From NCBI RefSeq assembly GCF_900129785.1, contig NZ_FSRC01000002.1, positions 496,001 to 560,000 of the forward strand: a stretch of 64,000 nucleotides of DNA. The letters run 5' to 3'. The notes under the pieces are model-generated. The model was given only the letters and a program-made list of their open reading frames with translations, did no database searches and had not been told where the DNA came from. This document shows, piece after piece, positions 28,362 through 63,617 of this stretch (position 1 is the first letter of the stretch; each line of letters begins with the position of its first letter). The stretch is from Algoriphagus halophilus (lineage in GTDB: Bacteria > Bacteroidota > Bacteroidia > Cytophagales > Cyclobacteriaceae). A program made the translations under genes and the position numbers.

Positions 28362-28399
28362 CTCAAATCTTATGGATTGAGAATGAGAATTTTTTGGCT

Positions 28400-30319
28400 A
28401 TGGCAAAATTTCGGTTTCTATTTATTCTACTTTTCATCATCTCTTTTTCACTGAAAGGACAAGACTTAGATAGCCTCCTTTTAAAGGCTTATTCCTATTA
28501 TTCAGATTATAACTATGAGGAGTCCATCCGATTTGCGGATGAAGCAATTCTTCTTGCAAAAAAAGAAGGAAATGAGTCTGCTTTGCTCATCGGGGAGTTT
28601 TATAAAACGCTGAGCCTTCAAGAACGGGATCCTACTCAATCCGATACAGAATTAATCGAGCGCATGATAGTCCAAATGGATAGTTTAGGTTTAAGGTTAG
28701 AGCAAGCAAGAGCCCATAACTTTCTGGCTAATACCTATGCCCGCTTCGGAGATATAGAAAAAGCGGTTGAAAATCATCAGGCTGCCATGGACATTTATGA
28801 ATCTACTGGCAATTTAACTGGTGTGTCTTCTTCCCATTCGAATCTCAGTTTGCTTTATTATGATCAACATGATTACGAGGAGGCTTTTTATCATGCTAGG
28901 AAGGCGTTGGAAATGGATCTCTCCTTAGGGAATCCAGAAAACATTCAAAGTAGCTATAACAATCTAGCCATCATATTTGAACACACAGGCCCGCTTGATT
29001 CTGCGATTTATTACCATAAATTTTCTTTGGAATATGCAAAAGAGGATGAAAATCCCTATTCCATAGGTTTAGCCCTCAGTAATTTGGGAAATAATTATGC
29101 CAACAAAGGAGACCTTAAGCTAGCCGAAGAAACTTTACTCGAGGCACTACGAATTCGAGATTCTTTAGGCTATTCTCGCGGCCTCGCTTATACTCATAAC
29201 CGACTTGCCAATCTTTATCAAAAGACTGATCAGTTATCAAAAGCTAAATTCCATGCGGATAAATCATTGGAACATGCCCAAAAAGCAAGAGAAGTAAAAG
29301 TACTTCGAATGGCTTATGAACGACTTCAAGAGGTAGCAGAAAAAATGGGGGATTATCGGGCTGAATTAGCTTATTTAAAGGAGGCAACCTTACTCAAGGA
29401 TAGTATCCTGAATGAATCGAATACAAAAAGTATCACCCAGATGATGCTTAATTATGAATTCGAGAAAAAACAAATTCTAGATAGTATCAAAAATGAACAA
29501 GAAAAGCGGGAGCGTGATTTAATTTTCAACGAACGTCTCGAATTAGAAAGAAGCCGTAAGATCATTTTCATGATTTCCGGATTATTCCTTTTCCTTTTAG
29601 TGGTTGGGCTTTTCCTCAGGTACCAATTCATTAAAAAATCAAAAGAAGTTCTTACCAAAGAGAAGGATCGATCAGATAAACTTTTGCTAAACATCCTCCC
29701 TTCAGAAGTAGCTGAGGAACTAAAAGCAAAAGGAAGTTCAGACGCTAGAGACTTTGATCAGGTAACTGTTATTTTCACAGACTTTGCAGACTTCACCAAA
29801 AAAGCCCAACATCTCAGCGCAAAAGAACTTGTCAAAGAATTGAATATTTGCTTCAAAACATTTGATGAGATCATTGTAAACCTCGGTTTAGAAAAGATCA
29901 AAACTATCGGGGATGCCTACATGGCAGCTGGGGGACTCAATTCCAAAGCTGGAGTTAAAGAAGTTGCCTTAGCGGCAATTCAGATGAAGAAATTTATTGA
30001 TGAGCGAAATGCCGACCCAAATATTCCCAAAAAAATCAAATTCGATATGCGATGTGGAATCAATACGGGGCCAGTTGTAGCAGGAATAGTAGGGATCAAG
30101 AAGTTCCAATATGATATCTGGGGTGATACGGTAAATACTGCTCAAAGAATGGAAGCAAATTGTGAAATAAACAGAATAAATATTTCTGAAAACACCTATT
30201 TGCTATTAAAAGAGGATCCACAATTCACTTTTACAGAAAGAGGAGCCCTACCTGTAAAAGGAAAAGGTGATATGAAAATGTGGTATTTGGAATCTTATGA
30301 AAAGGAAATTGATGTATAA
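28400..30319 (+). CDS. TPR-domain class III adenylate cyclase
   Basis: 639 residues from the ATG at 28400; a TTG two codons earlier adds nothing. A signal segment occupies 1-20. Six or so TPR repeats of about 40 residues run from 25 to 330, then a coiled coil, one membrane helix near 386-407, and the cyclase domain near 453-633. Metal-binding Asp461 and Asp505 are present. The two purine-selecting positions are Lys501 (K-T-I-G-D) and Asp572 (Y-D-I-W-G-D), the adenylate pattern, not the Glu/Cys of guanylate cyclases. Asn579 and Arg583 complete the site. The TPR part is probably periplasmic and the cyclase cytoplasmic, so it should convert an external protein contact into cAMP. It overlaps the sulfatase gene. 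Confidence 0.9.
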   Translation: MAKFRFLFILLFIISFSLKGQDLDSLLLKAYSYYSDYNYEESIRFADEAILLAKKEGNESALLIGEFYKTLSLQERDPTQSDTELIERMIVQMDSLGLRLEQARAHNFLANTYARFGDIEKAVENHQAAMDIYESTGNLTGVSSSHSNLSLLYYDQHDYEEAFYHARKALEMDLSLGNPENIQSSYNNLAIIFEHTGPLDSAIYYHKFSLEYAKEDENPYSIGLALSNLGNNYANKGDLKLAEETLLEALRIRDSLGYSRGLAYTHNRLANLYQKTDQLSKAKFHADKSLEHAQKAREVKVLRMAYERLQEVAEKMGDYRAELAYLKEATLLKDSILNESNTKSITQMMLNYEFEKKQILDSIKNEQEKRERDLIFNERLELERSRKIIFMISGLFLFLLVVGLFLRYQFIKKSKEVLTKEKDRSDKLLLNILPSEVAEELKAKGSSDARDFDQVTVIFTDFADFTKKAQHLSAKELVKELNICFKTFDEIIVNLGLEKIKTIGDAYMAAGGLNSKAGVKEVALAAIQMKKFIDERNADPNIPKKIKFDMRCGINTGPVVAGIVGIKKFQYDIWGDTVNTAQRMEANCEINRINISENTYLLLKEDPQFTFTERGALPVKGKGDMKMWYLESYEKEIDV

Positions 30320-41429: not shown

Positions 41430-42212
41430 ATGATTTCATTTTTAAGGAAAATCCGCCAGAAACTCCTGAGTCAAAACAGGGTCACCCAATACCTAGCATA
41501 CGCTATAGGAGAAATATTTTTAGTGGTAATCGGAATATTGATTGCCTTGCAGATAAATACTTGGAATCAGCAGCGAATTGAAAATAATGAAGAATTAGAA
41601 ATTCTTTTAGGGCTAAAAGATGAATTTGAAAATAATCTTGAGGAGTTAAACTTTAGTATCACTATCAATACTAAAGTAACTGAGGCCTGTGTGCAACTCA
41701 CCCAATTAATAAGATCCAATTCTATCGCAAATGATTCCGATTTGTTGGATGACCTACTAGTGAGGATTGGTACATTTAATTCTTTTGATGCTCAAACAGG
41801 AGTATCTAGTGAAATCGTGAATTCAGGAAAATTAACCCTACTTAAGAATGATGCCCTTCGCACTCGGATTATTAATTGGCTGACACTCTTAATAGATCAA
41901 GAAGAGGATATTCTTTTTAGATCTGATAATTATACCATGAACATGATGCCTTTTTTAATGAAACATTTCCCTTTAGCAAATGGAGAGCTTACTAAAAAAC
42001 TTCCTTTTGATAAGAAAAAATATCTCCAGAACTACCAGGAAAAATCCCCATTTAAGTTCAATATAGCTAAGGAAGAATATTTAGAGTTTGAGAATCAAAT
42101 TTGGCATCACAAGCATAACAATGATTACGTGTCAATAAACGAATTAAACTTAAAAGACTTTCTAAAAATAACACTCCAGATGATAGAGGAAGAATTGAAT
42201 AAAAAAAAATAG
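41430..42212 (+). CDS. DUF6090 family single-pass membrane protein
   Basis: 260 residues. The family cassette fills residues 1-50: a basic start (M-I-S-F-L-R-K-I-R-Q-K-L-L), R-V-T-Q-Y-L-A-Y-A-I-G-E, the membrane helix I-F-L-V-V-I-G-I-L-I-A-L and Q-I-N-T-W-N-Q. The remaining 210 residues are mostly helical, with the shared box V-N-S-G-K-L-T-L-L-K-N near residue 130. DUF6090 is a Bacteroidota family of unknown role, often found as several paralogues. Positive-inside charge puts the large part in the periplasm. It ends 1 base before the next copy. Confidence 0.85.
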   Translation: MISFLRKIRQKLLSQNRVTQYLAYAIGEIFLVVIGILIALQINTWNQQRIENNEELEILLGLKDEFENNLEELNFSITINTKVTEACVQLTQLIRSNSIANDSDLLDDLLVRIGTFNSFDAQTGVSSEIVNSGKLTLLKNDALRTRIINWLTLLIDQEEDILFRSDNYTMNMMPFLMKHFPLANGELTKKLPFDKKKYLQNYQEKSPFKFNIAKEEYLEFENQIWHHKHNNDYVSINELNLKDFLKITLQMIEEELNKKK

Positions 42213-42213
42213 A

Positions 42214-42353
42214 ATGATTTCATTTTTTAGAAAAATCCGCCAAAAACTCCTAGCTCAAAATAGAGTGACCAGATACCTTGCATATGCTGTAGGAGAAATC
42301 CTTCTCGTGGTGATTGGAATTCTCATTGCCTTACAGGTAAATAACTGGAATGA
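42214..42353 (+). repeat. DUF6090 5' cassette, copy A
   Basis: The first ~140 bases of this gene match the starts of the genes at 43034 and 43769 with few differences, including synonymous sites such as the stretch from AGAGTGACCAG to CTTGCATATGCTGT. Similarity stops abruptly after the W-N-E codons. Confidence 0.75.
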
Positions 42354-42957
42354 AGAAAGAAAGAATAATAAAATACGTGAGGTCTTTCGAAGTTCCCTAA
42401 AGAAAGATCTCCAAGCAGACACTTCCTATCTAAAAGCCACTATTCAAAAACTTCAATTGGAAAGTGAGCAATTAACGCAGTTTAAAAGTCTCATCAATGA
42501 AATAGGGACTGATAAAAATGCTTTGATAGGCTTAATAAATACTAAAATGGTGCCTTTTATTACCCCATTTAGTGGGTTCAATAATAACACTTATCGTTCA
42601 TTTGCCAACTCCGGAAGGCTTGAACTTATAAGTTTGGACCTCCAAGAAGATCTATTTAAACTAAATTCATTTCAAGTAATTGTTGAGCGCGATTCAGAAA
42701 AATATATTGATCTATATTTCAGTAATATCGAGGCTTTTAAACTACCAATTCCGGTCGATATTCAATTATTACAAAATGGACCAGTCACCGATGCAATATG
42801 GAAGGCGACTAATATTGAAACTATTGGAGTCAGATTGAACTCTTGGGGTACTTCCAAAAAGAACTATTATAGAATCATATTGCCATATTTGAATCAAGCA
42901 CAAGAGAGGACAACTCAGATTCTTAAGAAATACTTTTCTGAAGAAAGTCAAAACTAA
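42214..42957 (+). CDS. DUF6090 family single-pass membrane protein
   Basis: 247 residues. The N-terminal cassette (residues 1-47, ending Q-V-N-N-W-N-E) is nearly the same at DNA level as those of the copies at 43034 and 43769. The periplasmic part has its own sequence, with N-N-T-Y-R-S-F-A-N-S-G-R-L-E-L-I near 123-139 as the shared box. No enzyme motif is seen. It is the second of four tandem copies; the following gap is 76 bases. Confidence 0.85.
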   Translation: MISFFRKIRQKLLAQNRVTRYLAYAVGEILLVVIGILIALQVNNWNEERKNNKIREVFRSSLKKDLQADTSYLKATIQKLQLESEQLTQFKSLINEIGTDKNALIGLINTKMVPFITPFSGFNNNTYRSFANSGRLELISLDLQEDLFKLNSFQVIVERDSEKYIDLYFSNIEAFKLPIPVDIQLLQNGPVTDAIWKATNIETIGVRLNSWGTSKKNYYRIILPYLNQAQERTTQILKKYFSEESQN

Positions 42958-43033
42958 TTGGTAAAGGCATGGCTGTGATTCTGATTCTTGAAGAACTTGA
43001 AAAGTTTTAAAAATCTGCATAAAAAAAATTAAG

Positions 43034-43173
43034 ATGATCTCCTTTTTCCGCAAAATCCGTCAAAAACTCTTAAGTCAAAATAGAGTGACCAGGTACCTTG
43101 CATATGCTGTGGGTGAAATTCTTCTCGTGGTGATTGGAATTCTGATTGCCTTGCAGATTAACGAGTGGAACCA
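43034..43173 (+). repeat. DUF6090 5' cassette, copy B
   Basis: Matches copies at 42214 and 43769 closely for about 125 bases, then departs earlier than they do (Q-I-N-E-W-N-Q in place of Q-V-N-N-W-N-E). Confidence 0.75.
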
Positions 43174-43625
43174 ACAACGGATTAATAAGAAAATCTCTTT
43201 ACAACTTCACCAACGACTTCTGGAGGATTTCGAGTTGATAGAAATTCGTACTCAATCTTCTATTGCTGATGCAACTGAGTCTATGGAGCTTATTAGCTTC
43301 GCCCTTTTGTGTTTTGATCAAAAAAGCATTCCCAAGGGAGAAGAAGTAAAATTTGACCTTGCCATTCGACAGTTTTACCGATTTACCTATCCTGCCCTGC
43401 CAATGGCTACCTACGATGAAATGAAAAGTAGTGGGAAACTAGACTTGATTTACAACTTAGAGGTCAGAAACCAGCTGAACGCCTTTATCAGCCTACTTGA
43501 GTCAACCGAATTAATTTTGGGAAATGCAGGGCAATCAATTCAAAACAACCTTATTTATTACGATAAGTACATCAGGTCAGAAACTAATGCACAATCATTG
43601 AATCTTTCATTCTCTTATGACTTTG

Positions 43626-43631
43626 AAAAAA
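43626..43631 (+). other. A6 run at the DUF6090 frameshift
   Basis: Six As in the codons for E-K. With five As the upstream frame would read through to 43772 and restore the family's C-terminus. Confidence 0.65.
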
Positions 43632-43768
43632 TGGCAAGATCTTGAATACCAAAATAAACTATCAAGAGTTGGTGTAAACTGGAGGGCAGTGGCCTTTTTC
43701 AATAAGGGAATTCAAAAACAAGTAGAAAACTTGAGGAACTTGATTGAATCAGAAATAATCAAACTCAA

Positions 43769-43908
43769 ATGATCTCCTTCTTCCGCAAAATCCGTCAAAA
43801 ACTCCTAGCTCAAAATAGAGTGACCAGGTACCTTGCATATGCTGTGGGAGAAATCCTTCTGGTGGTTATTGGAATTCTGATTGCATTACAGGTAAATAAT
43901 TGGAATGA
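43769..43908 (+). repeat. DUF6090 5' cassette, copy C
   Basis: Shares long exact stretches with both copies: the first ~35 bases match 43034 best, and later parts match 42214 (GTAAATAA-TGGAATGAA). This mosaic pattern suggests gene conversion. Confidence 0.7.
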
Positions 43909-44506
43909 AAATAGAAAAGATGCAGAAAAGGAAATTCAATTATTGACAAACCTACAGGTTGAATTTAAAGACAACCTGAAAGACTTGGATTCTATATCAA
44001 TCGAAGTTGAAGAGGTTATATACTCCTTAGAAAAATTATTTGACTCTTTCTCAAGGGAACCCTCGCCTAATTTGAGAGACTCGGTCGATAGGTGGATAGC
44101 TTCGGGCCTTCAATCACCAAATTGGAAACCAAGTCAATATATTCTAAATAGTTTAACCAGTTCGGGGAGTATAACTAACCTAAAAAACGAACGATTAAAA
44201 CTATTACTATATCAATGGTCAAGACAACAAAATGAAATGTTGGAAGTGCAATTGAGGTCAGAGGAGACAGGCGAGGAAATCATCTCTTATGTCAAAGAGT
44301 TTGGATCCTTAAGGAATATCGATACGACCCATTCTGACTTTAAATACGAATCTTCAACATTAGGCAAAAGTAATAGCGGTTTGTTATCAGATGTTAGATT
44401 CGAAAACCTGATCGACGATAAACTGTACATGTACAAATTGACGAAGAAATGGTTAGAAACTGCTAAGAAAACATTGGAACAATTGATTGAAGAGACAAAC
44501 AGTTAG
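43769..44506 (+). CDS. DUF6090 family single-pass membrane protein
   Basis: 245 residues. The cassette at 1-47 is almost identical in protein to the copy at 42214. The rest diverges: coiled-coil-like L-L-T-N-L-Q-V-E-F-K-D-N-L near 58-70 and the shared box Y-I-L-N-S-L-T-S-S-G-S-I-T-N-L near 124-138. The start overlaps the restored stop of the frameshifted copy. It is the last of the four tandem DUF6090 genes and lies 168 bases upstream of the channel-like gene. Confidence 0.85.
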   Translation: MISFFRKIRQKLLAQNRVTRYLAYAVGEILLVVIGILIALQVNNWNENRKDAEKEIQLLTNLQVEFKDNLKDLDSISIEVEEVIYSLEKLFDSFSREPSPNLRDSVDRWIASGLQSPNWKPSQYILNSLTSSGSITNLKNERLKLLLYQWSRQQNEMLEVQLRSEETGEEIISYVKEFGSLRNIDTTHSDFKYESSTLGKSNSGLLSDVRFENLIDDKLYMYKLTKKWLETAKKTLEQLIEETNS

Positions 44507-51769: not shown

Positions 51770-52495
51770 ATGATCTCATTTTTTAGAAAAATCCGCCAAG
51801 AACTTCTAAAAGCAAATACCTTTACTCGGTACCTAGCCTACGCCTTGGGAGAAATACTTCTAGTTGTGATCGGGATATTAATTGCGCTTCAGGTAAATAA
51901 CTGGAATGAAAACAGGAAAGTAGATGCCGCCCAATTTAATCTATTGTCAAATTTCATGGTGGATCTGATGGCCGATTCGGTACTGCTCAAGGATTATGAA
52001 TCTGATTTATCAGCTGTGATGCAAACCCACAAGCAACTCTTTATGTCAGGAAAAGGAATTCTTTCATATTCTGAAATCGAAAATCCACAATTAATCAGAG
52101 GTTCAATTAGGTACCATTCTATTACCCTAAGCAATCATCCAAACATAGGCACCCAAGTAATGGATGATGAAATCATAAATGAAATTCTTGACTACTATCA
52201 ATTCCTAGCAAGAGTTGACAACTCTTATTTACAATATGACAATGTGGTCAAAGAAACAGTCAGGCCTTATTTAGCAAAAAACTTGGCATTAAACCCTGAT
52301 TATCTTTTTGACAATGAGAAAGAAGAAAAATCTCCATTGGATCTAGATCAATTCGCTAAAGTAATTTTACAGGATGATTTTGGACAGGTTCTTTTTGAGG
52401 CAAATCTTAAAGCTGCAGAAACAATGGAGTTCTTTGAAGAACTGGAAAGTAGAAATTTTGCACTCCGTAATTTGATCAAAAAGAAGGTGTCTTGA
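51770..52495 (+). CDS. DUF6090 family single-pass membrane protein, separate copy
   Basis: 241 residues. The cassette is diverged (R-Q-E-L-L-K-A-N-T-F-T-R-Y-L-A-Y-A-L-G-E) but keeps I-L-L-V-V-I-G-I-L-I-A-L-Q-V-N-N-W-N-E. The C-terminal domain lacks the S-S-G-x-L-x-L-I box seen in the other copies; V-M-D-D-E-I-I-N-E-I-L-D-Y-Y stands there instead. It is separated from the main block by the BNR gene on the opposite strand and has a 255-base divergent upstream region. Function unknown. Confidence 0.82.
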   Translation: MISFFRKIRQELLKANTFTRYLAYALGEILLVVIGILIALQVNNWNENRKVDAAQFNLLSNFMVDLMADSVLLKDYESDLSAVMQTHKQLFMSGKGILSYSEIENPQLIRGSIRYHSITLSNHPNIGTQVMDDEIINEILDYYQFLARVDNSYLQYDNVVKETVRPYLAKNLALNPDYLFDNEKEEKSPLDLDQFAKVILQDDFGQVLFEANLKAAETMEFFEELESRNFALRNLIKKKVS

Positions 52496-53183: not shown

Positions 53184-56100
53184 TTATTCTTTCACCTCCT
53201 TCCAACGCAATTTAATTTTCTCCAAACTCTCTTTTAAAGAGTTCACCGCTCGAATGGTTTGCTGGGTAGGTTGCACATCCGCTGCTTGGATCAGATTCAT
53301 CATAAATAGGAACTTTTGCTGAAGGCCTACCAAAGTTTCATCAGCCGGATCTGTCTCACGGATACTTCCATACATAGTATCTGGATTTCCTACCCTTCCC
53401 ATTCCTCTCAGTGCCAATTGCTCCTCGCTTGGCTTGGAATAAGCATCTATCGCTTCAACAATCCTTTGCAATTCATGGTAACTGTCGTAGCAAGTTTTGC
53501 TCAAATCCGTTTGCATTTGTAATGCCTCTTCCGAAATAGTTACCCGGGGATCCATTTTGATCGTCAATGGTTTTTCAAAGACCTCACCATCCACTGCCAA
53601 TCGTACACGGTAAGTTCCAGGCTTCACAAAAGGTCCTTGGGGTGCACTCGGCGTGTTTTTGTAAACTGCTGCAATTGAAAACTCTCTCTTGGAACCTCTA
53701 GGAGCTTCGTACTTTAAATCCCATATGAATCGATGGTGTCCCTGAGAAACACCTACTTTTTGCTCTGGTCTGATCCAATAGGTAGGATGAGGCAAAGCTG
53801 TGCTGTCTATTTCTTCCGGTTCCTGATCACTTGAAAAGGTCCTAATTACTTGCTCTTGTTCATCTACAATTTCCAATTTGACTTGCTGAGCCGACTGATT
53901 GAGTTGGTAATCCAAAATCGCCCCATCGGGAGGGTTTTGGCCGGTCGGCTCTTCCGGAGGAAGAGGTGTATCTGAAAACATATTCCACCTTACTCGATAT
54001 GTATCAGAAGGAGTAAATAAATAAGCGGACCTTCCTCGGGATTGAGCCATCTCTCTCAATGGAGCAATGTTATCTAATATCCAAGCAGATCGACCATGAG
54101 TTCCTACGACTAAATCATTTTCATGAATCACTATATCTCGAATAGAAGTAGCTGGCATATTATTTCTGAGGGACTGCCAATGTTCCCCATCATCTATTGA
54201 AAAATACACCTCCCGCTCTGTTCCTGCATATAATAACCCTTCTTTGACTGGATCTTCACGGACTACATTCACTGGACCGTTCGGATTCAAGCCATTCGTG
54301 ATTAAGTCCCACGTTTCCCCACCATCTCGCGTCCGATAAATGTAAGGAACCATGTCATCTTTTCGAATGGCATTAATGGCAATATATGCGGTCTTTTCAT
54401 CAAAATGGCTTGCATCTATTTGGGATACCTTGTCCCAAGAACTCATCACAGGAGGAGTAACTTCTTTCCAGTCTTTCCCTCCATTAGTAGTCAAATGTAC
54501 ACGTCCATCATCTGTACCCGCCCAAATAATATCTACATTCAAAGGAGAAGGCCCAAGCGCATAAATCACCCCTTTTCTTGCCATCGTTTCCATTTCAGGA
54601 GTCTTGTAATGGCCTACACTGGACGGAACCTCTGGTTGTTCGTAGGTCAGGTCAGGACTTATTATTTCCCAGCTTTGCCCTTCATTGGTGGTTTTCCATA
54701 ATACATTGGTACCAAAAAGAAGCATCGAATCATCCGCAGGATGGAATAGCAAAGGCATGGTCCTCACAAATCGGTAATCACCTGAACGCAAAGCTTCCGG
54801 AGCTACATTGGTTGATTGGCCTGTTCGCTTATCAAAACGCATCACACGGCCTCCATAAATAATATCAGGATTCTTTGGGTCAGGTGCCACGTAAGCATAT
54901 TCGTCTGCTCCAACACCTATAAATTCCCTAAAACTAATCTGCCCACCGTTTCCCCTACTAGCAACACCGATGGCACCACTTTCTTGCTGACCACCATAAA
55001 CCCAATAAGGAAATGCATTATCAGTAGTGACATGGTAAAGTTGTGTAGTTGGCTGGTTGTACCAAGAACTCCAAGTATGACCCGCATTCACTGTAACCAC
55101 TGCTCCTTGATCTGCCACGAAAAGCATGATATCTGGATTTAATGGATTGATCCAGATTCTATGGTAATCATCTCCTCCCGGTGCACCTTTCAGAGAAGAC
55201 CAGGTTTTCCCACCATCAGCAGAAGTATAAGAGGCAATATTGGCAACGTAAACCCGGTTGGGGTCTTTCGGGTGAACTTTAATTTCTGCAAAATCCCCTC
55301 CTCTACCCCAAAGTCTCCTGTCTTGATGAATCAAAGACCAGCTTTCTCCACCGTCCACACTTTTATAAATCCCTCCATTGTCCCTGGCATCGACAGTAGC
55401 AAACATAATGTTGGAATTACTTGGAGCAATTCCTACCCCAATTCTTCCCAAGCCTTGATCAGCCCCCGGTAGCCCTTTAGTAATCTTTCTCCAAGTTTCG
55501 CCTCCATCTGTACTTTTATAAAGCCCACTATTAGGACCAGAAAATGCTGCATTTTCCCAAGGGCCTTCCTGATGCTCCCACATATCAGCAAACAGAATTG
55601 ATGGGTTATTGGGGTCAAATTCTACCTGAATTGCACCTGTATTCTCATTGATATAGAGTACTTTTTTCCAGGTCTCTCCACCATCCACTGTCTTAAACAC
55701 TCCTCTTTGTTCGTTTGCTCCATAAGGGTGGCCTAATCCTGCGACAAAAACAATGTCAGGATCAGTTGGGTGCACAATTAACCTACCTACTTGCTGTATG
55801 TCATTCAGTCCTATGTGGGTCCAAGTCTTTCCTCCATCAATACTTTTGAAAATACCATCTCCAACCCCTAAATCAGGCCTATGAAGCCCTTCACCACTAC
55901 CGACATATAAAATAGAAGGATCGCTGGGAGCTACCGCAATATCTCCAACAGAGCCCGTAGGAGCCTCATCAAAAATAGGATTCCATGTCCTACCATAATC
56001 ATCTGTTTTCCAAACCCCTCCATTATTTACTCCCATAAAAAACACATTTGGTTGGGAAGGTATCCCCACTCCCCCGACTGTTCTACTAGCCCTAAACGGA

Positions 56101-56219
56101 CCAATCATACGGTATTCAAGGTTTTGATAGTGAGAGGATGAAACTTGCCCAAATATTGGGGAGAGAGAAAAAATAAGTATCCCTACTAATAGAATTCGGA
56201 GTTGTTGAAATTGAAGCAT
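53184..56219 (-). CDS. Large exported BNR/VPS10-type propeller protein (paralogue)
   Basis: 1011 residues from the ATG at 56219, which gives a clean signal peptide (L-L-V-G-I-L-I-F-S-L-S to F-G-Q); a longer frame begins at 56297 but has a poor N-terminus. At least nine Asp-box motifs (S-I-D-G-G-K-T-W, T-V-D-G-G-E-T-W, S-A-D-G-G-K-T-W and similar) build the same sortilin-like propeller as the protein at 48221. The C-terminal part carries Q-G-H-H-R-F-I-W-D-L-K-Y, equivalent to the R-V-F-W-D-L segment of the paralogue. Function unknown; surface or periplasmic. The protein belongs to the same family but is clearly diverged, so this is an old duplication. Confidence 0.85.
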   Translation of the reverse strand: MLQFQQLRILLVGILIFSLSPIFGQVSSSHYQNLEYRMIGPFRASRTVGGVGIPSQPNVFFMGVNNGGVWKTDDYGRTWNPIFDEAPTGSVGDIAVAPSDPSILYVGSGEGLHRPDLGVGDGIFKSIDGGKTWTHIGLNDIQQVGRLIVHPTDPDIVFVAGLGHPYGANEQRGVFKTVDGGETWKKVLYINENTGAIQVEFDPNNPSILFADMWEHQEGPWENAAFSGPNSGLYKSTDGGETWRKITKGLPGADQGLGRIGVGIAPSNSNIMFATVDARDNGGIYKSVDGGESWSLIHQDRRLWGRGGDFAEIKVHPKDPNRVYVANIASYTSADGGKTWSSLKGAPGGDDYHRIWINPLNPDIMLFVADQGAVVTVNAGHTWSSWYNQPTTQLYHVTTDNAFPYWVYGGQQESGAIGVASRGNGGQISFREFIGVGADEYAYVAPDPKNPDIIYGGRVMRFDKRTGQSTNVAPEALRSGDYRFVRTMPLLFHPADDSMLLFGTNVLWKTTNEGQSWEIISPDLTYEQPEVPSSVGHYKTPEMETMARKGVIYALGPSPLNVDIIWAGTDDGRVHLTTNGGKDWKEVTPPVMSSWDKVSQIDASHFDEKTAYIAINAIRKDDMVPYIYRTRDGGETWDLITNGLNPNGPVNVVREDPVKEGLLYAGTEREVYFSIDDGEHWQSLRNNMPATSIRDIVIHENDLVVGTHGRSAWILDNIAPLREMAQSRGRSAYLFTPSDTYRVRWNMFSDTPLPPEEPTGQNPPDGAILDYQLNQSAQQVKLEIVDEQEQVIRTFSSDQEPEEIDSTALPHPTYWIRPEQKVGVSQGHHRFIWDLKYEAPRGSKREFSIAAVYKNTPSAPQGPFVKPGTYRVRLAVDGEVFEKPLTIKMDPRVTISEEALQMQTDLSKTCYDSYHELQRIVEAIDAYSKPSEEQLALRGMGRVGNPDTMYGSIRETDPADETLVGLQQKFLFMMNLIQAADVQPTQQTIRAVNSLKESLEKIKLRWKEVKE

Positions 56220-56587
56220 TTGGCAAAGATTGGTTTTACTTATAAATAGAAAGATAAAAAAACTATGCTTTAGAAAGCGATCTACTAGCCTACTCATGAG
56301 AATGCCTTCCTTTTTTTGAAACTGAAATTCAAGATATCAATATATTTCAAACCTGATTCAGATTAATTCAATAAAAGAAACCTCATCTCCAATGACCAAA
56401 AGCAACCATCTATTCAAATAAACTGATGCTTAATAAATTAAATAATAAGTTGACCTATTTATCAAATAGATTATTTCTATATTTTTTTTATCAGGGATTG
56501 GATAAAATCAAGACCCAAACACTCATTAATTGATCTAAATTCTTACATTGAGATAATAACTTTTTTTTACCAATACTTAGTAAACTG

Positions 56588-58129
56588 ATGAGTCACCGAT
56601 TGACACCTTTGCAAGAGAAAAAGGCCAAGTCCCTAAATTTTTTAAGGAGCAAAAAGGCTTCAAAAAAGATTCCTTCCAGCTATAAATTATCATTGGAAAA
56701 ACTAGCCAAACTGGAAGAGAAACTTCATGGAAAAGTAGTATATCCTTGGTCCAAGGGATATAATAAAGATCGTCAGGAGTTTGATGATTTATACCCTACT
56801 TACCCTAAACTAATTGTCTATTCACTTTCTTTCACGGACATCAGGAAATGCCTGACTTTTGCAAAATCAGAAAATCTTCAGGTGGCTATTAGGTCAAGCG
56901 GGCATAGCTTAGCTTGTTTTTCTGTCTGTGATGGAATGGTGATCGATTTGAGTCTGATGAAGTCTATCCATGTAGACAAAGATCAATTAATTGCCGATGT
57001 AGAATCAGGAGCAAATTTCGGGGATCTCTACCCCAAAATTGAACAATACAACCTTCATACACCTACTGGGGATTGTCCTACGGTATGTCCATCAGGATTT
57101 ATGATGGGAGGAGGTTACAGTATAACCTCCAGAATGTACGGCATGGGATGCGATAATGTAAAGGAGGTCAAAGTAATGCTGGCTGACGGAAAAATTGTCA
57201 TTGCAAACGAAGAAAAAAACAAAGATTTGTTTTGGGCAATTCGAGGAGGAACCGGTGGAAATTTCGGAGTCTTATTAAATACAAAATTGAAGCTCCATCC
57301 CCTTGAAACCATTTTTGGGGTTCAAATGAGATGGCCCATCGAGAAAGACCCTGCTCTTGCAGCCAAGGTTCTATTTACGATTCAGGAATCTTATTTAAAA
57401 CCCGGCAAACTCCCCCAGCTGGGGATTGAAACGATCATTTCAAGTAATGACAATAAGGAGAAAATGGTCTTTTTCTGCGCGACTTGGATAGGATCCGAAA
57501 AAGATTTTATGGATGCTTTAAAGCCATTATTGGATATCTCTGGGTTTTCCATGGATTCCTATCAAGGAAAGTATTCCAAGGTCAACAATCTAGTTTTAGA
57601 AGGCACTCCTGATATACCGGAAGATGTGATGGCATTTAGTAGAAGTACCTATATCGATAAGCCATTAGGCTACAATCACTGGTATGACATTCTTAAATTT
57701 TTCTACAAACATGCGCCAAATCAATACACCATGATTGACATGGAAGCCTATGGTGGAAACGTAAGTCTAATTCCTGAAGATAACTGTGCATTTATTCATA
57801 GAAATGTCACCATGGATTTCTTTACGGAGGCATTTTTCAATAAAGAAACCCATGACAGGGGAGCTAGTGAAAAATGGGTCAATGATCTGTTTGAATTTAT
57901 GAAACCACTAGCAAATGGTCGCTCCTATCAAAACTACCCATACAGGGGACAAGAGGATTTCAGAACTGCCTATTGGGGCAAATATTACAACCAACTAGTT
58001 CAAATTAAGAAAAAATATGATCCAGATAATTTCTTTTGGTATCAACAATCCATTGGGCCTGATTTAATAGAGGATCCAAATCAAGTCACATTATTCGAAA
58101 ATTGCGCTATTGAATATGAAGCTTATTAA
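56588..58129 (+). CDS. BBE-type FAD-linked oxidase, predicted bicovalent flavin
   Basis: 513 residues, no signal peptide. The FAD_binding_4 domain spans about 70-240 and the BBE domain the last ~45 residues (N-F-F-W-Y-Q-Q-S-I-G-P). R-S-S-G-H-S places His106 at the 8-alpha-histidyl site, and G-D-C-P-T-V places Cys163 at the 6-S-cysteinyl site; both are needed for bicovalent FAD in berberine-bridge and sugar oxidases. G-G-G-Y-S-I-T and R-G-G-T-G-G-N-F-G-V are further FAD contacts. Substrates of the family are alcohols, sugars, cannabinoid or alkaloid precursors, oxidised with O2. Substrate unknown here. The cyclase gene starts 14 bases before its end. Confidence 0.88.
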   Translation: MSHRLTPLQEKKAKSLNFLRSKKASKKIPSSYKLSLEKLAKLEEKLHGKVVYPWSKGYNKDRQEFDDLYPTYPKLIVYSLSFTDIRKCLTFAKSENLQVAIRSSGHSLACFSVCDGMVIDLSLMKSIHVDKDQLIADVESGANFGDLYPKIEQYNLHTPTGDCPTVCPSGFMMGGGYSITSRMYGMGCDNVKEVKVMLADGKIVIANEEKNKDLFWAIRGGTGGNFGVLLNTKLKLHPLETIFGVQMRWPIEKDPALAAKVLFTIQESYLKPGKLPQLGIETIISSNDNKEKMVFFCATWIGSEKDFMDALKPLLDISGFSMDSYQGKYSKVNNLVLEGTPDIPEDVMAFSRSTYIDKPLGYNHWYDILKFFYKHAPNQYTMIDMEAYGGNVSLIPEDNCAFIHRNVTMDFFTEAFFNKETHDRGASEKWVNDLFEFMKPLANGRSYQNYPYRGQEDFRTAYWGKYYNQLVQIKKKYDPDNFFWYQQSIGPDLIEDPNQVTLFENCAIEYEAY

Positions 58130-60059
58130 AACAATTCTATCTCTTGTTTTATTCTTTGCTGCTATCAGCTTTTCGATGGCTCAATCCCTTATCAAAATTG
58201 GGGATAATGAAGGCGTGACTTTAGGTCCTCAGCTTGAATATTATGTAGATTCCACAAATTCCTTGGCTATTGAAGACGTTCAAAGTCTTTCTTTTGAACG
58301 AAGCAATGCTAAAATTCTAAACCTTGAAAACCTCAGTTTTGATGCATGGGTCAGGTTTGACCTTGAAAGACAAACAGAGGAGGAAATTTATTTAACCTTA
58401 GACAATGCACTTCTTGAGGAACTTGTGGTATACATCATTTCGGATGGAGTAGTTACCAACCATTTCGAGGGCAGCTTTCTCAAACCCTTCAAAAACCGAC
58501 TTATTCAATCAGAAAATTTCCAATTTAAATTACCGATTGCTTCCGGAAGCAGGAGTTCTATCTATTTAAAAGTACATAGTAAATTCCCTCTTCTCTTACC
58601 AATAGAAGTCTCGACCTATAAAGTCTTTTCCCAGAACAATCAAGAACACAATTTGTTTTGGGGTCTTTATGCCGGTACTATCCTGTTTGCCTTCTTATAT
58701 AACCTATTTGTTTATTTCTCTATTAGGGAAAAAAGATACCTCTATTACCTCTTATATATTCTGGGTTCGGTTATTTTTTACATGGGATTACAGGGTTATT
58801 CCTTCCAGTTTTTATGGCCAAACCACCCTATTCTGAATATTAGATTGGGCTTCTTGATTTGTATCACCAATATCATTATCACGGTGTTTACCATGAATTT
58901 TCTTCGGATCACCAAGAAGCAAAAAGTCATCTACTATATAGGGGTAGGCACCATCATTGCCTATGGGTTGATCTCCATCATGAACTTTACGCCCGCTTAT
59001 CCTGTAGGGCTGGGATTAGCACAATTACTAAGCTTGATCACATGTATTTACTTTATTGTAGTCGCAGTCATTAGCTACTTCCGAGGAATTCAAAGTGCAA
59101 AATACTACCTCATCGGATGGTCAATATTTCTGGTTTTGGTAGTAGTGTATATCCTTACCTTGAATGGGGTTATTTCAGGTAATTTTTTCACCACCCATTC
59201 CATTTTTATTGGTCATATGTCTGAGGTTCTGTTGTTGTCATTTGCGTTAGCAGACCAGATCAACATCCTTAAAAAGGAAAATGAACAGAATCAGAAAAAG
59301 ATCATCGCTCAATTGGAGGAAAATGAAAAGCTTCAATTAAAAGTCAATCTGGAATTGGAGGAAAAAGTATTGCAGAGAACAGCAGAGGTGGTAAAACAGA
59401 AAAATGAAGCAGAATATCAGCGAAAAAGAAGTGATGAATTACTTCTGAATATTTTACCTGCAGAAACTGCTGAAGAATTAAAAAACACGGGAAAAGCCAA
59501 AGCAAAACTTATTTCAGAAGTAACAGTAATTTTTGCTGACATTCAGGATTTTACACACTTATCAGAAAGTATGTCCCCCTCCGATTTGGTCAAAGAAATC
59601 AATGAGTGTTTTTCCGCTTTTGACAAAATCATGGGCAAATACAATGTAGAAAAAATAAAAACCATTGGTGATTCTTACATGGCAGCAGGAGGCTTACCTG
59701 TTCCCAATCAAACTCATGCCAGAGACGTGGTCAAGGCCGGTTTAGAAATTCAGGAATACCTAGCATCCTACAAAGAACGAAAACTCGCTAATGGGGAATC
59801 CCCTTTTGAGATGAGAATTGGAATTCATACAGGTCCAGTAGTGGCAGGTATCGTAGGCATAAAAAAGTTCGCCTATGACATCTGGGGGGATACAGTAAAC
59901 CTAGCCAGTAGAATGGAAAGCTCTGGAGAAATCGGAAGAGTAAATATTTCTGAAGCTACCTATAATTACGTCAAAGAAGATTTTAAATGTACCTATCGAG
60001 GTAAAATAGAGGCCAAAAACAAAGGAATGATCGACATGTATTTTGTCGAAAGATTATAA
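58116..60059 (+). CDS. 7TM-DISM receptor-type class III adenylate cyclase
   Basis: 647 residues from ATG 58116 (a TTG two codons upstream is also in-frame). A signal peptide ends near S-M-A-Q. A periplasmic 7TMR-DISMED2-like beta domain spans about 35-165, seven membrane helices about 183-383, a coiled coil 385-440, and the cyclase domain 463-643. Metal Asp475 and Asp519, purine-selecting Lys515 and Asp588 (Y-D-I-W-G-D) fit an adenylate cyclase. DISMED2 domains are thought to bind carbohydrate-like or other small ligands. Its start overlaps the FAD oxidase gene by 14 bases, so both are translated from one message; it may sense the oxidase's substrate or product. Confidence 0.9.
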   Translation: MKLIKTILSLVLFFAAISFSMAQSLIKIGDNEGVTLGPQLEYYVDSTNSLAIEDVQSLSFERSNAKILNLENLSFDAWVRFDLERQTEEEIYLTLDNALLEELVVYIISDGVVTNHFEGSFLKPFKNRLIQSENFQFKLPIASGSRSSIYLKVHSKFPLLLPIEVSTYKVFSQNNQEHNLFWGLYAGTILFAFLYNLFVYFSIREKRYLYYLLYILGSVIFYMGLQGYSFQFLWPNHPILNIRLGFLICITNIIITVFTMNFLRITKKQKVIYYIGVGTIIAYGLISIMNFTPAYPVGLGLAQLLSLITCIYFIVVAVISYFRGIQSAKYYLIGWSIFLVLVVVYILTLNGVISGNFFTTHSIFIGHMSEVLLLSFALADQINILKKENEQNQKKIIAQLEENEKLQLKVNLELEEKVLQRTAEVVKQKNEAEYQRKRSDELLLNILPAETAEELKNTGKAKAKLISEVTVIFADIQDFTHLSESMSPSDLVKEINECFSAFDKIMGKYNVEKIKTIGDSYMAAGGLPVPNQTHARDVVKAGLEIQEYLASYKERKLANGESPFEMRIGIHTGPVVAGIVGIKKFAYDIWGDTVNLASRMESSGEIGRVNISEATYNYVKEDFKCTYRGKIEAKNKGMIDMYFVERL

Positions 60060-60095
60060 AACACCATGCATCACTAGTAAGAAACTTAAAATTTT

Positions 60096-62261
60096 ATGGG
60101 ACTTTTTGACTTTCCAAGGATTCATTTTAGTGGGAAAATTGACATCAATGTACCTACTATTAATAATTCTTATTATTTCCCTTTAACCATGTATGACCAA
60201 ACAAGGTCGAAAGCTTTTTTGCCCCCAAGGTTATACTTTTCTGATCCTGCTATTCCTGAAAAGGTAAAGCCAACAATTAACCCCAAGATCATCCATGATG
60301 TTGAGAATGGATATTGGTACATAGAAGTCGAGCCTATCAATACGATTGACAAACTACGGGATTGGTGTAGAAACCCATTGGGAAAAGATTCCAAAGCTTT
60401 GGATGTTGCTTATAATCCTTATTATGAAGCGGCTGACAAGGACTTAGGAAAGGTAGAAGGAGCCGATTTGATAGGAAACCCACCTGGCTATTGGAATATG
60501 TATGGGGACATGAGCGTGAAAATGTATGATACAAAAGTGGCTGGTGTCCAAACCTATCAGGGAGGTAAAGTCAATACCTGGACAGAAAACAACCCTTCTC
60601 AAACCAAAGAAATTGGAGAATTACTAACCTGTGCATTTAACCTAGACACGAAACCGGATAGTGGAATTAGTACTGCTGTGATTGCGGAAACCATCTCTAG
60701 CCAAAGCATCTATGCTAATATCTTTTGCTCTTCCGTGAATTTATTCAAAGAAACTGAACCAGATCAAGTATTTCTCCAAGGTAAACCCTTCCGATTTTCA
60801 GCAATGATCTATGGAAGTTGGCGAGTAGTCAATTGGCTTCCAGCCATGGCAGGTTCTGCAAGATGGGTTTCGAGCATTCCTATGGATTCCATCCCAAATT
60901 CAGAACAAAGCAAACTGATCTCATTTTTCGAATCTCAGAATAATTATGACGGCAGACCTTTGAAAGGCGTTTTTGTCAGCTTTTCCACCTTCGAAGTATT
61001 TGAAAATAGATATGATCCAGAACTCTATCAACCCGAAGGAATAATCAAAAATCCTGCACAAGCCACTACAGTAGGAAGTATTTCTCCTTGGTATGAAGAA
61101 GATATGAAATCAGCCGTATCGGGAAGAAATTTGATTGCATTGAATACTCAGCCCATTTTTACCAATACAGGTAACGATGGTAAGATTCCTATTCAATTGA
61201 CGCCAGCAATTGCCTCTAACCGTAAACTTTCTGAAACCTTATCCATTTTCTCTGTGGACATGGGTAATAGTTGGCCGGAATTGATGGACCCTCCATTTCA
61301 GGTTGACAAAGTTCAGCCCGCCAAAAGAGGGGAAGCAACCTTTGAGACTTTGAACTTGGGTACATTAAGCTTTAGAACCGGACCCGATTCATCTTCGGAA
61401 TTTGCTTCAATTCAGGTAGACCCAATGAATAATCCCCTTTCTAAAGTATTTGCTCAGGGCTGTTTATTCGATTTTGTGATCACTGATCCTGCTACTATTG
61501 ACACCATAGAAAACGAGTACATCTATGTGTATGGGTTAATTGACGGCTCAGAAAAACTTGTTTTAAAAGAATCCACCTACATGATCTTAACAGACGAAAA
61601 GGGTCTTTATGGGGAAGAAGGAGACGATCCTGATGAGGGCTATATGTCTTTCTCTGAGCAGAAGCAACCTTGTAGATTAAGGATTTTCCAAAGAGGTAAA
61701 CCGATCGTTCAACCCATAGAGATTTATATCGCTGAATACATTGTTCCGGAGGCGGCCAATGATCCTTTAAAAGGACCGGACAATGTGTGGACTCAGCAGG
61801 TTGCAGACACAGACATCGTTCATTTGGTATCCAATCAAATCAAAATAAAAAACACTGCGGTTTACTACTTTGTGTACAAGGGTCAATATCCGGACGATGT
61901 AATCCCTACATTCACCACTTCCAATTATACCATCATGGATACTGGAAGTTTTGCTACCCTACGGGTTTATCCGAAGAAAGATTACGAAAAATATACCAAT
62001 CCAAACCATCCGGAATATGCACCTCCTACTTTTGAAGTCATGTACGAAGAGGTTTTCAAGCTTTACGATGTGGTGTATCCAATCATGGCGGAAATCCATC
62101 CTTTTACAAAAGAAGCATGGGAGAATGGTATCATGGCAGGCATGGTCAAACAACGTACAAATCCAAGCCTTTGGGACGACGTGTTATATATGGGAAGATC
62201 CAGGGAGTTGAGCAGATCCCAAAGAGAATTGATTCTGGCCTGGGCTAAAAAGTATGAGTAA
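60096..62261 (+). CDS. VioB/RebD N-terminal-domain-like protein without ferritin-like half
   Basis: 721 residues, no signal peptide. The opening G-L-F-D-F-P-R-I-H-F-S-G-K-I followed by N-V-P-T matches the start of VioB and RebD, the haem enzymes that couple two indole-pyruvate imines in violacein and rebeccamycin synthesis. The last ~75 residues (Y-D-V-V-Y-P-I-M, then L-Y-M-G-R-S-R-E-L-S-R-S-Q-R) match the end of their first domain (Y-E-L-V-Y-P-F-M and Y-Y-M-P-S-T-R-E-L). The ferritin-like second half of VioB is missing and the shared domain is longer than usual. VioB homology is from remembered sequences and should be tested. It follows the cyclase gene by 36 bases. No indole-pathway gene is near. 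Confidence 0.65.
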   Translation: MGLFDFPRIHFSGKIDINVPTINNSYYFPLTMYDQTRSKAFLPPRLYFSDPAIPEKVKPTINPKIIHDVENGYWYIEVEPINTIDKLRDWCRNPLGKDSKALDVAYNPYYEAADKDLGKVEGADLIGNPPGYWNMYGDMSVKMYDTKVAGVQTYQGGKVNTWTENNPSQTKEIGELLTCAFNLDTKPDSGISTAVIAETISSQSIYANIFCSSVNLFKETEPDQVFLQGKPFRFSAMIYGSWRVVNWLPAMAGSARWVSSIPMDSIPNSEQSKLISFFESQNNYDGRPLKGVFVSFSTFEVFENRYDPELYQPEGIIKNPAQATTVGSISPWYEEDMKSAVSGRNLIALNTQPIFTNTGNDGKIPIQLTPAIASNRKLSETLSIFSVDMGNSWPELMDPPFQVDKVQPAKRGEATFETLNLGTLSFRTGPDSSSEFASIQVDPMNNPLSKVFAQGCLFDFVITDPATIDTIENEYIYVYGLIDGSEKLVLKESTYMILTDEKGLYGEEGDDPDEGYMSFSEQKQPCRLRIFQRGKPIVQPIEIYIAEYIVPEAANDPLKGPDNVWTQQVADTDIVHLVSNQIKIKNTAVYYFVYKGQYPDDVIPTFTTSNYTIMDTGSFATLRVYPKKDYEKYTNPNHPEYAPPTFEVMYEEVFKLYDVVYPIMAEIHPFTKEAWENGIMAGMVKQRTNPSLWDDVLYMGRSRELSRSQRELILAWAKKYE

Positions 62262-62309
62262 TCCTTTGTTTTCACATACCAAGTTTTTCATCTATTAACC
62301 CTAAAGTTT

Positions 62310-63617
62310 ATGCATACTGATTCTTTAGATTTTCCTTCCTTTTCCATTCGGCTTGAGCCTTTGATCCAACCTGAAAGGATGCCCTTGATACAATCTGGAG
62401 CTTGGGCAGTTTGGGATAATAAATTAATAATTCTTGGAGGTAGAGATGAAGGTTTTCATGGCTTAAATCAATTACAAAAACCCTTCAAACAAAGCCGAGT
62501 CAATCAATCGATTTGGGCGATAGATTTAAGCAGTTTTGAATCTCTTGAATTAAAGTTAGACCTCAAGAATCCTGAATGGGAGCAGCTGTTCTCTTCCAAT
62601 ATGCAATTTGAACAAGATGGAAGCATCCTCTATATCGTAGGAGGATTTGGAGCCCGACATTCCACGGATAAGCAGAGTGATGACACTTTTGATTCCTTGA
62701 TTGCTTTTGACTTACCAAAATTGATGATCGAAATTGAGCGACAAGGAGATCCTTCAAAAGCTGTTGTAGCAAAAGCTTGTAGCCCTCATTTAAAAGTTAC
62801 GGGAGGAGAATTACTGAAAATCGGAGACTTCTTTTATCTCTGTTTTGGACAATGCTTTGAGGGCGTATATGATCCCGGGAAATCTGGTCTTTACACAGGA
62901 GCCATCCGAGTATTTCAACTTAAGGATCAAGAAATAACCTTAGTCCGGGAAATCAAACACGAAAGTTTACACCGAAGGGATTTAAATGCAGTAAAAATTT
63001 ATCAAAATGAAAAAACATTCCTAGCAGGACTTGGAGGAGTATTTGATCCCAAAGGGAACGGGTATTATAATCCCGTTTATTACGACCCTAAAAAGGATGA
63101 ATGTTCAGTTACTGTTGACCCTTTGAAACAGCTTAGCAATCAATACAATTGTGCCAAAGCAAGTATTTTTGACAAAGAATCCAATAGCTGCATTACAGTT
63201 CTATTAGGAGGTATAGGTCAGAACCAATATCATACTGCTGGAAACTCTTGGGAAAATGGAGATAGTGGAGCAAAAATTCCATTTGTGAAAAGCATTACTC
63301 AAATGATCTTTTCAAAAGGTCAGATGTACCAATACATTCAATCCCCTCCACAAGACCCAGAAATGCCAGGACTTCTTGGTGCCAATGCAATATTCATCCC
63401 TTCTTCAGCATTTAAAAACGAAGAATCTCTTATTGATTATAGCCTTTTGAAAAATCAGGTGTCTACAATTGGTCACTTATATGGAGGAATCGAAGCTCAA
63501 AGACCTACTTCCAGTACCATCTACCCCACTCGGGTAAACCAAGTTATATACAAGGTTTTGCTGGAAAAAAATGAAGACAAAAGTTTTCAGACTCTTACGA
63601 GGAGCAGATTAGGATAG
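62310..63617 (+). CDS. Kelch-like beta-propeller protein, no signal peptide
   Basis: 435 residues. Repeated blades contain the Kelch-type strand with double Gly: L-I-I-L-G-G-R near residue 35, I-L-Y-I-V-G-G-F-G near 110, A-G-L-G-G-V-F near 234 and V-L-L-G-G-I-G near 300; about six blades fit the length. No signal peptide or membrane helix, so it is probably cytoplasmic like the VioB-like protein 48 bases upstream. Propellers of this kind act as binding scaffolds or, in galactose-oxidase-like cases, as enzymes, but no copper ligand set is evident. Co-transcription with the three genes before it is likely. No terminator is visible after it. Confidence 0.7.
   Translation: MHTDSLDFPSFSIRLEPLIQPERMPLIQSGAWAVWDNKLIILGGRDEGFHGLNQLQKPFKQSRVNQSIWAIDLSSFESLELKLDLKNPEWEQLFSSNMQFEQDGSILYIVGGFGARHSTDKQSDDTFDSLIAFDLPKLMIEIERQGDPSKAVVAKACSPHLKVTGGELLKIGDFFYLCFGQCFEGVYDPGKSGLYTGAIRVFQLKDQEITLVREIKHESLHRRDLNAVKIYQNEKTFLAGLGGVFDPKGNGYYNPVYYDPKKDECSVTVDPLKQLSNQYNCAKASIFDKESNSCITVLLGGIGQNQYHTAGNSWENGDSGAKIPFVKSITQMIFSKGQMYQYIQSPPQDPEMPGLLGANAIFIPSSAFKNEESLIDYSLLKNQVSTIGHLYGGIEAQRPTSSTIYPTRVNQVIYKVLLEKNEDKSFQTLTRSRLG

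Follow-up and report, generated by a model that had tools for sequence, protein, structure and literature searches.

Three kinds of described protein bear on the gene set examined here. VioB, like the chromopyrrolic acid (CPA) synthases, contains heme (PMC9705886; PMC10851217), and a 2021 review that names 3hl1 as the best template for VioB states that VioB had yet to be solved structurally and that its catalytic properties were for the most part unknown (PMC9705886); the passages of the VioB literature that we read assign no role to its first part. BBE-like flavin oxidases are active in natural-product synthesis (PMC11375781), crystals of two of them, Tcz9 and Clz9, contain a bicovalent flavin (PMC12632287), and bulky substrates are said to be favoured by bicovalent flavoproteins (PMC11375781; PMC6017366). 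For the third kind, the 7TMR-DISM receptors, we found nothing in open PMC texts that joins them with adenylate cyclase and Bacteroidetes. Here we analyse a 64,000-nucleotide stretch of contig C2 of the 4.98-Mb genome of Algoriphagus halophilus (the window), in which a flavin oxidase gene, a 7TMR-DISM receptor cyclase gene, a gene for a protein resembling the first part of VioB (VBL, our working name for proteins of this type) and a gene for a Kelch-like beta-propeller follow one another. Each part is of a known kind, and the combination was not found in the literature searched; the search covered open PMC texts for such a gene combination, with pairs such as Kelch and DISM outside it. We tentatively favour, with slightly less than even confidence, the view that this is a conserved Bacteroidota module in which the oxidase and the VBL-Kelch pair would make an oxidised small molecule or act on one, the state of the module being read by a 7TMR-DISM receptor of its own, with cyclic AMP (cAMP) as the predicted output here.

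All four open reading frames (ORFs) of the preliminary description are present on the forward strand. Gene 1 (56588..58129, 513 aa) encodes the oxidase; gene 2 (58116..60059) encodes a receptor of 647 aa from the ATG at 58116, or possibly of 649 from a TTG at 58110; gene 3 (60096..62261, 721 aa) encodes the VBL; and gene 4 (62310..63617, 435 aa) encodes the propeller. The spacing also agrees with that description: the oxidase stop codon at 58127-58129 lies beyond the cyclase ATG, giving a 14-base overlap, and the remaining gaps are 36 bases (60060-60095) and 48 bases (62262-62309). Its view of the products as a bicovalent-type oxidase, a DISM receptor adenylate cyclase, a protein resembling the first domain of VioB/RebD and a Kelch-like propeller stood up to profile and structure comparison, with the flavin linkage and the adenylate type remaining predictions.

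A survey of gene order supports the four genes as a real conserved unit, as far as genome comparison can tell, and bears out the expectation that they would be neighbours in relatives. The identical order occurs in the window's genome, in three named relatives (L006, L007 and L008) and in L121, which belongs to another family and whose gene 3 is 50% identical. L047 carries all four in a different order (gene 3 at 40%), as does L126, where they are reordered and gene 3 is distant (27%). The genes that flank the set in the window are retained in L006. In L007 and L008 other genes adjoin it directly, though look-alikes of some of the window's wider neighbours lie close by, so the region is shared only loosely, with rearrangement around a set that stays intact. 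Moreover, VBL and Kelch form a single protein in P0010 and L048, and P0007, P0008, P0009 and P0013 are apparent fusions of similar length, 52-70% identical to P0010. Shared contigs point the same way. We paired database hits whose longest contigs were identical in size and compared the counts with 400 shifted nulls. Among 63 close VBL hits, 22 agree in this length with one of 119 oxidase hits (null mean 0.2, maximum 2), a lower bound because the oxidases were the best 120 of 1731 hits, and nine agree with one of 73 Kelch hits (null mean 0.1, maximum 2); five contigs match for VBL, oxidase and Kelch all together. One Kelch-oxidase pair, on a contig of 105,620 bases, was checked directly and proved to be the contig of L047.

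To see what accompanies VBL, we gathered loci by gene 3, read their neighbours, scanned the domains and checked the counts by one search of all 26 loci. The stretches read were mostly 16-20 kb, with L039, L048 and L126 shorter; L039 and L126 are cut short by contig ends, and absences from them carry little weight. Gene 3 is rare: surveys with two query alignments over overlapping genome sets found it in 5/295 (family), 5/395 (phylum), 14/341 (order) and 9/395 (class) genomes, in 7/222 from the family of genome G479 and in 3/150 from that of G357. Its commonest company is a sensor gene, present by our count in 23 of the 26 loci. A DISM receptor lies within about 5 kb of VBL in 17 loci, a class III cyclase with a FIST protein in five (L024-L027 and L049; the L024 cyclase has a GAF match under cutoff) and a Reg_prop-SpoIIE protein in one (L048). 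A histidine-kinase-like ORF 3.4 kb from VBL in L124 was not counted as a sensor gene. Kelch is found in 16/26 loci and a P359-type protein, which belongs to no known family, in 9/26; L050 has neither, and no locus has both. A VTT membrane protein occurs in seven. We had considered that VBL always comes with a cyclase and that the oxidase is a constant core member; the former was dropped when kinase and SpoIIE outputs were found, and the latter because the oxidase is near VBL in only seven loci.

The receptor linkage stands out against the number of such genes per genome. DISM genes number 1-16 in the 23 genomes counted (2-16 in the first 17; three in the window's genome). Of the first 17 genomes, 10 have a DISM gene no more than about 5 kb from VBL, against 0.25 expected, and four of six genomes found later have one beside VBL (1-9 DISM genes each; 0.045 expected, P about 4e-8 if independent), figures that overstate the case because the genomes are related and not fully independent. 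All seven genomes whose cyclases were counted (4-9 each) have one beside VBL, these genomes having been chosen after a cyclase was seen there. No oxidase was found in 19/26 loci, and the linkage between VBL and receptor therefore does not require it.

Some of these loci have further recurrent neighbours. In five loci with one genus label (L024 5211-11485, L025, L026, L027 and L049), genes for FIST, class III cyclase, VBL and Kelch are adjacent; there the VBL is distant (26-27% identical) and the Kelch protein looks exported. The P359/P321 family (one member scanned, no known domain) is found at L022 10589-11668, L023 5136-7231, L035-L039, L122 and L125, on the strand opposite to VBL in 9/9 loci, never with Kelch, and in two copies in L023 and L125. 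A C39-like cysteine peptidase and a further small ORF lie near loci with VBL and a kinase receptor (L022 14344-15009; L035 14624-15220), with look-alikes in L036-L039. A VTT membrane protein and an Omp85-like protein adjoin VBL in L050 (6218-7947), L123 (7376-12543) and L124 (10214-11956), two of which have no receptor.

To ask how the receptors are related, we built trees from the sensory halves (DISMED2 and 7TM) of those that partner VBL and of other DISM proteins; the latter were a sample of DISM genes, 49 rows in the first tree and 44 in the second, taken from 60 stretches of the first 17 genomes and from none of the six later ones. In the first tree, 13 partners and 49 others are separated by two label changes (0/500 shuffles as clustered, mean 12), the partners forming clades of eight (95/65) and five (99/99). 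For the second tree, four later partners were added and L059_1464, L096_1502, L105_1375, L102_633 and L104_499 were dropped; its 17 partners fall, among 44 others, into clades of 10 (100/96) and seven (99/92), again with 0/500 shuffles as clustered (mean 15.1). The outputs within each clade are mixed. The clade of 10 contains six histidine kinases, three cyclases and one SpoIIE protein, and the clade of seven contains four cyclases (the window's included), a histidine kinase (L121), a SpoIIE protein (L047) and one output lost at a contig end (L126), which amounts to at least four output changes over 16 rows of the receptor tree. The companions are sorted: oxidase and Kelch accompany all seven members of the smaller clade, whereas the clade of 10 has the oxidase in none of its loci and the P359-type protein in nine, so that oxidase presence changes once on the tree. 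A VBL tree built without L121-L126 agrees for the main groups, uniting L023 with six f3-family loci (98/99) and L047 with the window type (100/100), and disagrees for L050, whose VBL sits on a long branch in the FIST-type group (95/96) and whose receptor sits in the P359-type clade. Judged from these trees, the sensing half of the receptor is inherited with VBL and a specific partner set, and the intracellular output is exchanged. On the simplest view, what the sensor recognises would be something made, bound or used by the module.

In gene 2, 7TMR-DISMED2 (PF07696, 58224-58613) and 7TMR-DISM_7TM (PF07695, 58650-59258) both score above cutoff and are followed by Guanylate_cyc (PF00211, 59502-60050; E 1.8e-58). 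The cyclase carries the motifs EKIKTIGD and YDIWGDTVNLASRM, which look to be of the adenylate type, and we predict that it is adenylate-specific. Gene 1 matches FAD_binding_4 (PF01565, E 1.3e-25) and BBE (PF08031, E 3.4e-13), and its best PDB match is EncM (E 6e-45; aligned in two pieces, 332 of 513 residues), followed by Tcz9 (9p1o) and Clz9 (9p1p). Among the best 120 of its 1731 relatives, the window's own included, His106 is kept in 116/116 and Cys163 in 119/119 ungapped rows. By motif position we take these to be the bicovalent-flavin residues, and we predict that the flavin adenine dinucleotide of gene 1 is linked through both. The matches of gene 4 to Kelch models are all below the Pfam cutoff (the best by E-value has 21.2 bits against 50; 0/4 listed reach cutoff). 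Over 415 aa, gene 4 aligns at 51% identity with the C-terminal part of the fused relative P0010, the model of which has a clear Kelch fold (Foldseek E 5.3e-10 to KLHDC10 and to thiocyanate-forming protein), and through that model gene 4 can be read as a Kelch beta-propeller.

Gene 3 matches a single NCBIfam model, VioB (TIGR04492), at E 2.1e-6; its score is 25.8 bits, where the model's cutoff is 1250. It matches no Pfam model, the ferritin-like PF12902 included. All eight further VBL-type proteins compared match TIGR04492 (E 9.8e-5 to 3.5e-10) as the sole model under E 0.01; the best stretches shown for gene 3 and these proteins jointly cover positions 1-150 and 240-583 of its 1003, with none in the later part. 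Because the match is weak and confined to the first part, the score is far below cutoff and the ferritin-like domain is missing, gene 3 is by profile comparison a real but weak homologue of the first part of VioB, not a VioB. Named relatives of gene 3 occur in Algoriphagus lutimaris (93%), A. zhangzhouensis (75%) and a Cyclobacteriaceae metagenome-assembled genome (75%). The AlphaFold2 model of VBL is confident (mean pLDDT 91.1, pTM 0.91), and residues 343-627 give middling structural matches to Ig-like domains. The window's own genome has one PF12902 match, on a contig other than the window's; that protein weakly matches VioB positions 672-833 (E 0.003) and the ferritin-like structure 3hl1 (E 7e-11). 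It is part of a split VioB-like pair on contig C3 (L005 8508-11298, minus strand), with a glyoxalase-like ORF adjoining.

We infer from these comparisons a mechanism in which every step beyond gene linkage is conditional. A bulky substrate would be oxidised in the cytoplasm by the predicted bicovalent flavoprotein, and the product would then be bound or handed on by VBL and Kelch, which some relatives carry as a single polypeptide. The dedicated 7TMR-DISM receptor would read the state of the module, its ligand being a product or substrate of the module; in the window its adenylate cyclase would turn this into a cAMP signal, and in relatives a like sensory half would act through a histidine kinase or a SpoIIE phosphatase. 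The preliminary description had raised the possibility of an oxidative small-molecule pathway with its own sensor. That view fits the census, both in the DISM linkage and in the clade of seven with the oxidase; the oxidase lies near gene 3 in only seven of the 26 loci.

Several observations weigh against the module-reading explanation. The 19 loci in which no oxidase relative was found are one, and the lack of any nearby DISM, cyclase or SpoIIE gene in L040, L123 and L124 (3/26) is another. The VBL model has no clear PDB relative and no activity readable from it, and the VBL alignment (75 rows) contains no invariant His. In the first tree a long-branch non-partner, L059_1464, joins just outside the clade of eight (98/94). 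The relatedness of the genomes tempers the chance figures, as noted. Finally, the compartment is unclear. By a crude hydrophobicity test 0/70 VBL hits have a signal peptide, and the window-type Kelch has none either. Of the 74 Kelch hits the best 29 were examined, however, and 22 of these begin like exported proteins or lipoproteins. DISMED2 is extracellular by its family name, which leaves two options: passage of a small molecule through the membrane, or relocation of the Kelch part.

Two alternatives, control of the module by the receptor and a VBL that serves only as the receptor's partner, fit nearly as well as a receptor that reads the module. In the first case, which we consider unlikely yet worth keeping in view, the receptor would sense an outside cue through DISMED2 and switch on oxidase, VBL and Kelch by cAMP, phosphorelay or phosphatase, the module being the regulated output. 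Receptor genes often adjoin genes under their control, and interchangeable outputs suit a regulator as well as a reader. Yet a cyclase or SpoIIE output would have no obvious route to the neighbouring genes only, and no recurrent regulator gene was seen beside VBL in the neighbourhoods read, in which not every neighbour was scanned.

The second case is likewise improbable in our judgement: VBL and Kelch would be structural partners of the receptor, as ligand-binding or scaffold proteins, and would make nothing, with the oxidase an occasional addition. It would account for the excess of sensor genes near VBL (23/26) over oxidases (7/26), for a VBL model with middling Ig-like matches and no recognised active site, and for a third place taken by either Kelch (16) or the P359-type protein (9), never both. 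On the other hand, the sequence of VBL looks like that of a cytoplasmic protein, in contrast to the extracellular place ascribed to DISMED2, and L040, L123 and L124 keep VBL and Kelch where the sensor genes are absent.

A bolder extension of the module-reading explanation, which we regard as doubtful, is self-contained chemical signalling of an undescribed kind: the oxidase and VBL-Kelch would make or mature a signal, their own DISM receptor would detect it, and evolution would swap the output (cAMP, phosphorelay or phosphatase) while chemistry and sensor stay joined. If this were true, the first part of VioB would be a general module partner that is elsewhere joined to a ferritin-like domain in pigment pathways. 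Apart from this extension, the occurrence of that part alone in a sensor-linked unit opens a way to learn its role. The exchanged outputs on a kept sensory half amount to a natural experiment, with related input delivered as a cAMP, phosphorelay or phosphatase signal, and the module provides a DISM receptor with a source of ligand that can be put to the test.

The analogy with violacein and rebeccamycin synthesis, in which VioA/RebO feeds VioB/RebD, had been raised in the preliminary description and is not supported. On this view the oxidase would yield an imine or a quinone-like product for VBL to dimerise. The weak VioB homology of gene 3 and the place of BBE-like oxidases in natural-product synthesis (PMC11375781) are in its favour. 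Against it, gene 3 lacks PF12902 and falls far short of the VioB cutoff (25.8 against 1250), and the ORFs of the 26 loci yielded no relative of the ferritin-like PF12902 protein that the genome carries elsewhere. The oxidase, moreover, is of the BBE/EncM type, and we take VioA to belong to a different flavin oxidase family. A violacein-type reaction is unlikely, and this pathway as a whole very much so. That the four are chance neighbours with unrelated functions is scarcely credible: singly they are common protein types, but their order is kept across families, two are fused in relatives, they share contigs and their receptors form two sensory clades.

The set is flanked upstream by a divergent gene (53184-56297, minus strand), and the intergenic region between them (56298..56587) is presumed, by position only, to hold the promoter of the set. 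No match to a Bacteroidota-type promoter was found in 56298-56587, and promoter and terminator counts were not above those of shuffled sequence. The next ORF 3′ of the set begins at window position 64008 (L003 15008). Several ORFs starting MISF(F/L)RKIRQ... lie at 41430-44506 and 51770-52495, that at 51770 matching DUF6090, and look-alikes of them adjoin the four-gene set in L007 and L008. At 28394-30319 the window has another class III cyclase, one that bears TPR repeats. Just outside the window (L004 311-15000), large ORFs resembling kinases are accompanied by two FIST-like ORFs and one more of similar appearance.

Comparison with the described systems places each part. Like EncM and Clz9/Tcz9, gene 1 has both Pfam domains and both candidate flavin-linking residues, and its translation has the C-terminal Y-x-N (YQN); it differs in its genomic company of VBL, Kelch and DISM receptor. 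Gene 3 is homologous to the N-terminal part of the VioB/RebD/StaD family (TIGR04492; chromopyrrolic acid or imine-dimer synthases). It departs from that family in having no ferritin-like part, in falling far below the model cutoff, and in adjoining another type of flavin oxidase and being tied to a receptor gene. The split pair in the same genome resembles gene 3 in its 560-aa relative of the VioB first part (E 1.1e-9), but there this protein is followed by the 365-aa PF12902 protein, and no oxidase, Kelch, P359 or VTT relative lies within the 19 kb read. Gene 2 shares with other 7TMR-DISM receptors the arrangement of DISMED2, 7TM and cytoplasmic output; what sets the VBL-linked receptors apart is that two sensory clades appear to be dedicated to VBL loci, with the output exchanged within each.

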